A DNA stretch of 64,000 bases. It comes from Rhodobacteraceae bacterium LMO-JJ12 (GTDB taxonomy: Bacteria > Pseudomonadota > Alphaproteobacteria > Rhodobacterales > Rhodobacteraceae). The notes under the pieces were generated by a model, which was not told the DNA's origin, did no database searches, and saw only the letters and a list, made by a program, of their open reading frames with translations. Made by a program: the position numbers and the translations under genes. Every line of letters starts with the position of its first letter. Position 1 is the stretch's first letter. The stretch covers positions 868,001-932,000 of the forward strand of contig JAKGBX010000001.1 of NCBI GenBank assembly GCA_021555075.1, read 5' to 3'. This document shows, in pieces, positions 55,597 to 57,751 of this stretch.

Positions 55597-55952
55597 TGAG
55601 AATGGTCCTTGTTTTGCCGTGAACCGACTTGCAGAGGGATTGGCCGTGCAATGAGACAGATTTTTTACCATGGGGTTCTCGCTGTCGTCATTGACGTAGA
55701 TCATTGGTTCGGGCCGTGAATGCATATCGCACAGTAAAGTGGCGGAAATGGCGAGGCGGCGCCGGGTTTGCCCCAATGCGGGTTGTGATGAGACCGCAGT
55801 AGGGGTAAGTTTTTCCGGTCATGAGTTTGCCGTGTACTACTTGGCGGTGAACGAATGCGGTCTGGGTGTGACGCCTGTCGAATTTGGGCCGTGTGATTGA
55901 CGATTCGTTGATGAAGATTCTGTTCAATCCACTGTCAATTAGGTGAAATACA
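55597..55952. other. 356-bp divergent promoter region, MacA / GSCFA
   Basis: Non-coding region between the adaptor gene (-) and GSCFA gene (+). A TTGACG sequence at 55897-55902 could be a -35 element for the GSCFA gene, but no clear -10 follows. An AGGTG ribosome site lies just before the TTG start. Nothing else is recognisable. Confidence 0.45.
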
Positions 55953-56987
55953 TTGGTAGACCATCCGTACAAGGGGCTTCCCGATAATCGATTCTGGAAA
56001 AGGGCAATTGCGGAAAAAGGTATTTTTGACCTTTCCGATGTCTACGAGAAAAAATTCGATATCGATCCAAATGAACCCATTGCGACCGCAGGCAGCTGTT
56101 TCGCTCAGCACATTGCGAAACGCCTGCAATCAAGCGGCTATCGCTATCTTGATGCGGAAGCCGCCCCGTTCAATTTCCCGCCTGACGATATGGAGGCGTT
56201 TGGATACGGGCTATATTCGGCGCGTTTCGGAAACGTGTACACCTCGCGGCAGCTTCTTCAACTGGCACAAAGAGCGTTTGGAAAATTTGAACCAGTTGAA
56301 CATATCGTGGAACACAAAGGTCGGATTTACGATCTGTTGCGCCCCACGGTTGAGCGCGACGGTTTCGCCAGTCGCGACGAGTATGCGGAAATTCTGCAAT
56401 ATCATCATCGTGCTGTCCGGCACATGCTTACACGTTGCGGTGTCTTTATCTTCACCTTCGGTTTGACCGAGGCTTGGGTGGATAAGCGGGACGGAACAGT
56501 CTATCCGATTTGTCCGGGCACTGCGGCGGGTGAATTTGATCCTGCCAAATACAGTTTCAAAAATTTCACAGTGTCGGAAAACCTGGCTGACATGCGGGAA
56601 TTCATTGAGTTGGTTCGAAGCGTCAATCCCGGTGTGAAGTTCATGTTTACGGTTTCACCCGTGCCACTTGTTGCAACCGCGGAAGAACGTCACGTAATGG
56701 TTTCGACGGTCTATTCCAAATCGGTCTTGCGCGCGGTGGCGGGCGAGCTGGAGCAGCAGGACCCCTTGATTGACTATTTCCCGTCATATGAAATCATTAG
56801 CGGTATCCCGTCGCGGAGCATGTTTTTCCTACCGGACATGAGGTCGGTGCATCCCAAGGGTGTGGATCTGGTTATGGAGCATTTCTTTAAGCAGCATCCG
56901 CCCGCAAGAGCGACGGTTTCGCATATTCAGCGTCAAGAAGAAGAACGTGATCCCGCCTGTGACGAGATCCTATTGGAGGCGGAATAA
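55953..56987 (+). CDS. GSCFA domain protein
   Basis: A 344-residue protein of the GSCFA family, an SGNH-hydrolase-related group. The family motif TAGSCFAQHI is at residues 45-54 with Ser48 as the possible nucleophile; FGLTEAW lies mid-protein and SVHPKGVDLV near the C-terminus may hold the Asp/His pair. GSCFA proteins are uncharacterised but are proposed carbohydrate-acetyl esterases or transferases. The start is TTG at 55953, with AGGTG upstream, so expression may be modest. Its stop overlaps the next gene start by one base. GC content is lower than the window average. Confidence 0.85.
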   Translation: MVDHPYKGLPDNRFWKRAIAEKGIFDLSDVYEKKFDIDPNEPIATAGSCFAQHIAKRLQSSGYRYLDAEAAPFNFPPDDMEAFGYGLYSARFGNVYTSRQLLQLAQRAFGKFEPVEHIVEHKGRIYDLLRPTVERDGFASRDEYAEILQYHHRAVRHMLTRCGVFIFTFGLTEAWVDKRDGTVYPICPGTAAGEFDPAKYSFKNFTVSENLADMREFIELVRSVNPGVKFMFTVSPVPLVATAEERHVMVSTVYSKSVLRAVAGELEQQDPLIDYFPSYEIISGIPSRSMFFLPDMRSVHPKGVDLVMEHFFKQHPPARATVSHIQRQEEERDPACDEILLEAE

Positions 56988-57751
56988 TGGGGTATGACTT
57001 TCAAGCACCGAAATACCATATTTTTGGCGATAGCAACGTGAACAGGCTTCTGGTTGCCTCGCAAGGAATGAGGGCGCAAATAGCGGCTTCCGGATTTCCC
57101 TTAGGTCTTGTTCGCGCGCTGGGTGCTGCGAACGAGTTCTATGCTCCTTTCTATGAACTGAGCGACTCGAAATTGCGGATTACTGATCCCAAGTTGAAAT
57201 CTCGACTGGAAGGCGAGCTTTGTGACGAAAACGGCTTCATGCATGAGCCGGATGGATCGCTGTGGCTGATATCCGGAGGGTTTCACACGCTCGGTTTCCT
57301 GAACAGTGCGCGCTGGGACACTCATCGGCTTTGGCGTGTCGGCTCGGACCGGCAGCTCGCACCTATCAGCGATGGGGCGTTCAAGGCTATGGTTCTCGAT
57401 CTCAACCGGTTCTTTTTGGGTTTCCTGAGAGACGCGATGGCGCTGGGATACCGCGTGGCGGTATTGTCTTCCGCGCCGCCGACCGAGAGATTCGTCGAGA
57501 GATTGGCCAGCAAAAAGTGGACGCGCGATGAGATACTGTTGATGGATGGCGCTGTTCGAGAGGTGATGACAACGCAGTTGGCCGAGATGGGCATAGCCCT
57601 TATTACTCCGCCGGAAGATGTGGCCAAGGATGGCTTTCTGAAATCAGAGTATCTGATGGCGAACCTCGCGGATTCGCACCATGGGGACGTCGAGTATTCC
57701 AAGAAATACCTGGGAAAGATTGCCGAAACTTGCGGGTATTCGGTAGCTTAA
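56987..57751 (+). CDS. SGNH-like hydrolase paired with GSCFA
   Basis: A 254-residue protein that starts with YHIFGDSNVNRL, where GDSN (residues 14-17) matches block I of SGNH esterases with Ser16 as candidate nucleophile. Near the end Asp229-x-x-His232 (ADSHHGD) matches block V. Blocks II and III are weak, so the assignment rests on these two. Overlap by one base with the GSCFA gene (TAATG) shows coupling. The pair may act in succession on a polysaccharide or lipid acyl group. GC content is low like its partner. Function not established. Confidence 0.7.
   Translation: MGYDFQAPKYHIFGDSNVNRLLVASQGMRAQIAASGFPLGLVRALGAANEFYAPFYELSDSKLRITDPKLKSRLEGELCDENGFMHEPDGSLWLISGGFHTLGFLNSARWDTHRLWRVGSDRQLAPISDGAFKAMVLDLNRFFLGFLRDAMALGYRVAVLSSAPPTERFVERLASKKWTRDEILLMDGAVREVMTTQLAEMGIALITPPEDVAKDGFLKSEYLMANLADSHHGDVEYSKKYLGKIAETCGYSVA

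Follow-up and report, generated by a model that had tools for sequence, protein, structure and literature searches.

The 64,000-nucleotide stretch of the Rhodobacteraceae bacterium LMO-JJ12 genome analysed here (the window; positions 868001−932000 of contig 1 of a 4.35-Mb genome) carries on its + strand a pair of open reading frames (ORFs) encoding a GSCFA-family protein, P0001 (55953−56987, 344 residues, TTG start), and an SGNH-fold partner, P0002 (56987−57751, 254 residues, ATG start). Base 56987 is common to both frames within the sequence TAATG, which confirms the one-base overlap of two SGNH-related proteins described in an earlier reading of the letters alone (the sequence-only reading). 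Possible ribosome-binding sites, read from the sequence, precede both starts (AGGTGA at 55941−55946 and GGAGG at 56975−56979, both +), and the homologues of P0001 align from the same N-terminus, supporting its TTG-start frame. P0001 matches PF08885 with 179.1 bits against a gathering cut-off of 25 and carries the GSCFA motif at residues 47−51 (G47-S48-C49-F50-A51; 56091−56105, +); one GSCFA match was found in the window genome at E ≤ 0.001. P0002 had no match in Pfam, NCBIfam or PHROG at E ≤ 1, and PDB sequence searches gave nothing useful. The G+C contents of P0001 and P0002 (51.3% and 54.0%) are the second and third lowest among 56 ORFs of the window (mean 59.7%, standard deviation 3.4); the lower G+C that the same reading had noted for both genes thus holds in rank, although P0002 lies only mildly below the mean.

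AlphaFold models predicted an SGNH fold for both proteins, from 60 sequences for P0001 (predicted local distance difference test score 93.5, predicted template modelling score 0.92) and from 58 for P0002 (95.7 and 0.92), in agreement with their proposed SGNH kinship. The P0001 model superimposed on Ape1 (8gkd_C; Z 12.2, root-mean-square deviation (rmsd) 3.8, 209 aligned residues) and on the OatA domain 6wn9_A (Z 10.0, rmsd 3.2, 151 aligned). The P0002 model superimposed on 4hf7 (Z 11.8, rmsd 3.6, 172 aligned) and, tied with the top match, on PatB 7tjb (Z 11.0, rmsd 3.8, 183 aligned), and Foldseek related it to the lipopolysaccharide acetyltransferase domain 6se1 (E 1.2e-4). In Pfam, the partner family came closest to PF19040, the SGNH domain found in AT3 O-acetyltransferases, which 9 of 58 members matched (best E 4.7e-5). 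P0002 therefore resembles the SGNH-AT3 O-acetyltransferases (OatA, OafB) and PatB in fold and, weakly, in sequence, whereas the window pair has no membrane acyltransferase domain and its second protein is the soluble SGNH-fold P0001. The maximum 19-residue hydropathy was 1.23 for P0001 and 1.30 for P0002, so no membrane segment is expected in either, which makes export-coupled transfer as in OatA or PatA/PatB unlikely; no gene for the membrane acyltransferase part of these systems was present among the flanking proteins scanned.

The pairing is conserved. A search with P0002 of 248 genomes of the same family, the window genome included, found a match in eight, and it is not a chance association, because a GSCFA gene is adjacent in all eight; GSCFA itself was found in 108 of the 248. 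A scan of genome contigs with the P0002 sequence alone gave no match, and an iterated partner profile detected a partner beside most GSCFA genes. GSCFA loci were drawn from relatives, the phylum, named plasmids and named genome contigs (of at least 578 confirmed, the 80 best were used), and removal of duplicates and of domain fragments shorter than 180 residues left 200 distinct genes. Scores against a profile of P0001 and its relatives divided them into type A (>400 bits, n = 166) and type B (<320 bits, n = 34), with none between. With a partner defined as lying at most 400 bases away on the same strand, or as fused, and with partner profiles built partly from the same loci as were counted, 155/166 type-A genes had one: 138 of the SGNH kind (one of these loci also carrying a weak alpha/beta match), 14 alpha/beta hydrolases (one fused) and 3 WcbI proteins (one fused). 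By the same definition 0/34 type-B genes had a partner, many of their loci having only ~2.5 kb of flank. The coupling of the two genes proposed in the sequence-only reading is thus borne out well beyond the window.

Eleven type-A genes had no partner by this definition. Two are fusions with a C-terminal SGNH-like part (L074 and L148, the part in L148 being assigned by motif alone, with no credible Pfam match), and L122 carries an additional, fused GSCFA-like domain (31.9 bits). In L073, on a plasmid of Sinorhizobium meliloti GR4, the GSCFA frame stops early, the partner lies 3 kb downstream and the locus looks interrupted; an alpha/beta-hydrolase-like gene lies upstream. Two genes end at a contig edge (L168, L181), and in L078 GSCFA and a partner-family gene occupy opposite ends, ~34 kb apart, of an apparent single nonribosomal peptide synthetase (NRPS) gene cluster; for L089, L090, L091 and L092 no partner was found. 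Some loci were unusual in other ways. A type-A GSCFA gene and its partner are both broken by stops into several frames in L262 (G717:C15), a decayed pair, and the closest relative (L094/L114, 71% GSCFA identity) has an open partner frame that lacks the GDS part at its N-terminus, and the match contains one stop. Three consecutive partner-family genes lie near one GSCFA gene in L108 (6130−9301), and L098 (8039−11958) holds two convergent GSCFA/partner pairs.

Alignment of the two types pointed to the loss of a catalytic residue from the partnered one. Ser48 and Cys49 occur in 166/166 type-A proteins and in 30/30 aligned type-B proteins (4 gapped). Block V of type B shows Asp at position 295 and His at position 298 in 34/34 proteins, whereas His is found at 298 in 0/165 aligned type-A proteins (1 gapped); the former block V of P0001 reads D295-M-R297-S298-V299 (56835−56849, +), with D295 retained, Ser in place of His and an Arg297 found in 165/166 type A. 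P0001 is thus a GSCFA protein of a partnered subtype without the block-V His, and the absence of His coincides with the presence of a partner (155/166 in type A against 0/34 in type B). Because type A lacks this His, Ser48 is unlikely to act as a classical triad nucleophile; the sequence-only reading placed this serine correctly, but its catalytic assignment is weakened; in a related protein the neighbouring Cys is reported to matter (see below). A second Cys near the C-terminus, at residue 336 (56958−56960), is present in 162/166 type A (3 gapped, 1 Ala).

P0002, on the other hand, has the canonical SGNH residues, a block I Ser (G14-D15-S16-N17; 57026−57037, +) and a block V Asp-x-x-His (D229-S-H-H232; 57671−57682, +). 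Ser16 is present in 136/138 partners (2 gapped), His232 in 135/138 and Asp229 in 121/138, with Glu in 5 more, so the three candidates singled out earlier were well chosen. Gly98 was found in 25/58 sequences of the P0002 family, columns 97−98 alone being compared.

The SGNH protein is one of three partner kinds that are unrelated in sequence, each of which is seen fused to GSCFA. An SGNH partner is fused in L054/L074 (593 residues), an alpha/beta hydrolase in L159 (895 residues) and WcbI (PF18588, a putative acetyltransferase) in L172 (788 residues, WcbI 76.5 bits) and, independently, in L269 (653 residues, WcbI part 14−309, GSCFA 302−653). WcbI also adjoins GSCFA in L069 (103 bits) and L105/L268, which brings to four the loci where it stands beside or is fused to a type-A GSCFA. 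The SGNH partner profile gave 0.6% against the WcbI profile, 0.7% against the alpha/beta-hydrolase profile and 3% against GSCFA, none a match, and no sequence relation between WcbI and P0002 was detectable. The alpha/beta-hydrolase partners have an invariant G-x-S-x-G, Asp210 and His248 (9/9), and the one in L159 shows a weak, sub-threshold similarity (E 0.0028) to Asp2, a protein reportedly connected with the O-acetylation of glycoproteins. When the partner kinds (known for 159 genes) were mapped onto a FastTree tree of 167 GSCFA genes, in which 57 of 164 inner branches are weak, 2 changes sufficed to explain them; partner kinds thus follow clades.

A system of related composition has been described. 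In Pseudomonas entomophila, pipG (GSCFA) and pipF lie side by side, and their products together with PipD perform the last O-acetylation of pseudotetraivprolide, a detoxin/rimosamide-like compound, according to the accessible part of a December 2025 report (PMC12828459, to which part all citations of it here refer); the sequence-only reading, which knew of no characterised pair of this sort, has therefore been overtaken. Deletion of pipG was complemented by pipFG and not by pipG alone, and PipF Ser18 and His211 and PipG Cys47 were found to matter, the role of Cys47 being called unexpected (PMC12828459). The window locus shares with PipDFG a GSCFA protein, corresponding to PipG, and an SGNH-like one, corresponding to PipF, with matching Ser, Asp-x-x-His and Cys positions, PipG Cys47 directly following Ser46 as Cys49 follows Ser48 in P0001. 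PipDFG was described as exclusive to detoxin/rimosamide-like clusters (PMC12828459); homologues of PipF and PipG are widespread outside such clusters among the loci collected here.

The correspondence with PipF was traced through clusters of this type. GSCFA genes are present in the miramide, rimosamide and detoxin clusters, as stated in the accessible part of PMC9503745, and two Streptomyces plasmid loci (L070 and L072) contain NRPS-type genes, GSCFA, a hypothetical protein and a TauD-type dioxygenase, together with SpcZ in L070, which we infer to correspond to PipD. The hypothetical proteins matched the P0002 family profile with a probability of 98.8 (E 1.1e-16, 214 columns), so P0002 is a homologue of a detoxin-like-cluster protein encoded beside GSCFA. 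In a genome from another class of the same phylum (G586), a run of NRPS-like ORFs (~256−289 kb, contig 1) is bordered by GSCFA on one side and by PipF-like, PipD-like and two dioxygenase genes on the other, and the partner profile found this PipF-like gene at E 3.8e-27. A PipD-like model of three sequences detected nothing in the window at E ≤ 10, although a very divergent PipD could be missed; its best match in the window genome had E 0.22 over 38 positions, versus 4e-119 in G586 (the source of one of the three), and in 271 loci it found only its own three sequences. A single-sequence PipD search of the window genome also gave nothing. No NRPS cluster with a dioxygenase surrounds the window pair; its neighbours, all on the − strand, are HlyD/MacB-type transporter genes upstream and genes for a tyrosine-phosphatase-like protein and a metallophosphatase downstream. 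With PipD and the NRPS cluster missing, the pair represents a variant of the PipF/PipG kind and not a member of a PipDFG complex.

Eight plasmid loci, picked by annotation from 39 plasmid records with a match (6 SGNH-type, 1 alpha/beta-type and 1 type B without partner), were annotated for context. Glycan genes lie within 6 kb in 5/6 of the SGNH-type loci: rfbABCD, rhamnan synthesis and sulfotransferase genes in Octadecabacter, a glycosyltransferase 61 gene in Thalassovita, glycosyltransferase and epimerase genes in Rhizobium, polysaccharide export and sugar transferase genes in Leisingera, and glycosyltransferase genes in Paracoccus; only an epimerase/dehydratase gene is near the sixth pair, from Rhodobacter. 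This evidence is weak because the records were chosen by annotation. The closest same-strand neighbours of SGNH-type pairs (35 of 37) included 3 SASA acetylesterases, 2 members of glycosyltransferase family 41 (GT41), 2 sulfotransferases and 2 coenzyme A (CoA) transferases. Flanking genes were oriented near-randomly (58 same and 46 opposite upstream, 53 and 53 downstream), no neighbour was conserved over 49 of 66 eligible loci (98 flanking proteins), with glycan families scattered among the first 25 of 86, and type-B flanks (50 proteins) gave a similar picture, the first 25 of their 41 families including 2 GDP-mannose dehydratases/epimerases. Glycan genes, which the sequence-only reading advised looking for nearby, thus accompany most of the annotated plasmid pairs but are not a conserved feature of the context-blind sample. 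Owing to the near-random orientation and the lack of a conserved neighbour, we rejected the neighbourhood as a guide to the acceptor; a polysaccharide acceptor is plausible.

In the one same-genus genome searched (G633), the block downstream of the window pair is kept and the pair is absent there, a GSCFA/alpha-beta-hydrolase pair being located elsewhere in that genome. Together with the low G+C, the pair-free block suggests that the window pair is mobile. No PADLOC match pointed to a defence system (E ≤ 0.1), and a single PHROG match of E 0.24 did not support a phage origin. Elsewhere in the window, a 240-residue ORF without Pfam match (46815−47534, −) has the lowest G+C of the 56 ORFs (47.9%). 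A tandem Pho-box-like repeat with two overlapping 12/14 matches (50896−50924, +) lies 5′ of a PhoU gene (51001−51708), which has a histidine kinase gene upstream and a response regulator gene downstream. Pho regulation of the pair itself was rejected, the best Pho-box-like sites upstream of it scoring 9−10 of 14, like 202 sites in the window.

We consider it probable, on this analysis, that the two proteins are subunits of a single cytoplasmic O-acyltransferase, most likely an O-acetyltransferase, working like PipF/PipG. Partner Ser16, activated by His232 and Asp229, would first be acylated by a soluble donor, for example acetyl-CoA. GSCFA, as the non-canonical SGNH subunit, would complete the active site and bind the acceptor, its Cys49 acting either as a thiol relay or as an indispensable contact, and a hydroxyl of this cytosolic acceptor would finally receive the acyl group. 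Conserved pairing, the predicted SGNH folds, the Ser/Asp/His of the partner, the absence of the GSCFA His and homology to the detoxin-cluster proteins all support a two-subunit enzyme, as do the fusions of GSCFA to each partner kind, the complementation of pipG by pipFG and not by pipG alone (PMC12828459) and the correlated distances of the paired proteins (r 0.61 over 138 pairs, against a maximum of 0.05 in 500 shuffles). The relation to PF19040 and the fold similarity to PatB and 6se1 speak for acyl transfer. The acyl chemistry foreseen by the sequence-only reading is retained in this proposal, whereas its two separate esterase/transferase steps fit less well than one joint reaction by a complex.

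Several points weigh against the O-acyltransferase proposal. For pairs outside detoxin-like clusters, we know of neither an activity nor a donor or acceptor. SGNH folds are common to esterases, so the fold cannot separate a transferase from a hydrolase. Types A and B look like two clades, so that the link between His and partner amounts to one evolutionary correlation, and residue 300 of P0001, two positions past the usual site, is a His (4/166 type A) that may be a substitute catalytic one. The correlation between the distances of the paired proteins partly reflects shared species history. The link to PipF/PipG runs through the detoxin-type clusters of Streptomyces and G586 and not through the PipF and PipG sequences themselves, and PipD, required in the published system, was not found here. 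Importance was reported for PipF Ser18 and His211, not for PipF Asp208, PipG His51 or PipG Thr238, and E. coli given pipDFG showed no acetylation (PMC12828459).

The complete triad of the partner, and nearest folds that include acetylesterases, among them Ape1 for P0001 (8gkd_C), would also suit a two-subunit deacylase, in which the triad strips acyl groups from a cytosolic substrate and GSCFA confers specificity. We regard this as unlikely, since the related PipDFG complex adds acetyl in vivo (PMC12828459) and the nearest Pfam relatives are the SGNH domains of O-acetyltransferases. It also appears rather doubtful that GSCFA is the true catalyst, a cysteine acyltransferase acting through Cys49 with the partner as loader or scaffold. 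The invariance of Cys49 in type A, the effect of PipG Cys47 in vivo (PMC12828459) and a GSCFA that stays constant while the partner type varies between clades all fit such an arrangement, but the partner Ser and His are conserved almost as strongly as Cys49, PipF Ser18 and His211 are needed (PMC12828459), and the presence of Cys49 in all aligned type-B proteins means that it is not specific to the pair.

The glycan genes around several plasmid copies and the acetylesterases, GT41 proteins and sulfotransferases among the closest neighbours recall the proposal of the sequence-only reading that the two proteins are independent enzymes acting in sequence on a surface polysaccharide or lipid. We hold this to be improbable: GSCFA-partner fusions and a GSCFA without the block-V His favour one complex, pipG was complemented only together with pipF (PMC12828459), and no membrane segment is predicted. 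That the pair was recently acquired and has no present role here, as its low G+C and the pair-free block of G633 might indicate, is hardly credible given that both frames are open with all key residues present.

Beyond the window pair, type-A GSCFA could, as a tentative generalization, be the subunit shared by soluble acyltransferases of a modular class. Having lost its own catalytic His, it would be the obligate Cys-bearing partner of exchangeable acyl-loading subunits (SGNH, alpha/beta hydrolase and CoA-binding WcbI), and one of its members would be the partner sought for WcbI-type capsule acetyltransferases. The leaning of the three partner kinds towards acyl chemistry is, among the general arguments for an acyltransferase, both the strongest and the most speculative. 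Counting against the WcbI link, only 2 of 9 WcbI loci in the 248 relatives have GSCFA (L268 adjacent, L269 fused), with none within 1.5 kb in the other 7. WcbI binds CoA at Cys14 and His201 and gave no activity on its own, and its authors proposed a partner, as stated in the accessible part of PMC4104973; a literature search found no later report of one.

GSCFA was listed as one of five SGNH families without known function in the accessible part of a 2022 review, and PipG gave it a role in 2025, the available text leaving open the function of the Cys and the need for two hydrolase-like subunits. The wide distribution of the pair, the lost His and the three partner types are new here; in the GSCFA literature searched, most subscription papers and bioRxiv being outside its scope, we found neither the missing His nor the partner families nor the WcbI-GSCFA link described. 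The absence of His in exactly the partnered subtype offers a testable reason why two hydrolase-like subunits are needed. With partner exchange and fusions, what seemed an odd step in the making of a single natural product would become one case of a broadly distributed class of enzymes, with type-A GSCFA as a candidate partner for WcbI.
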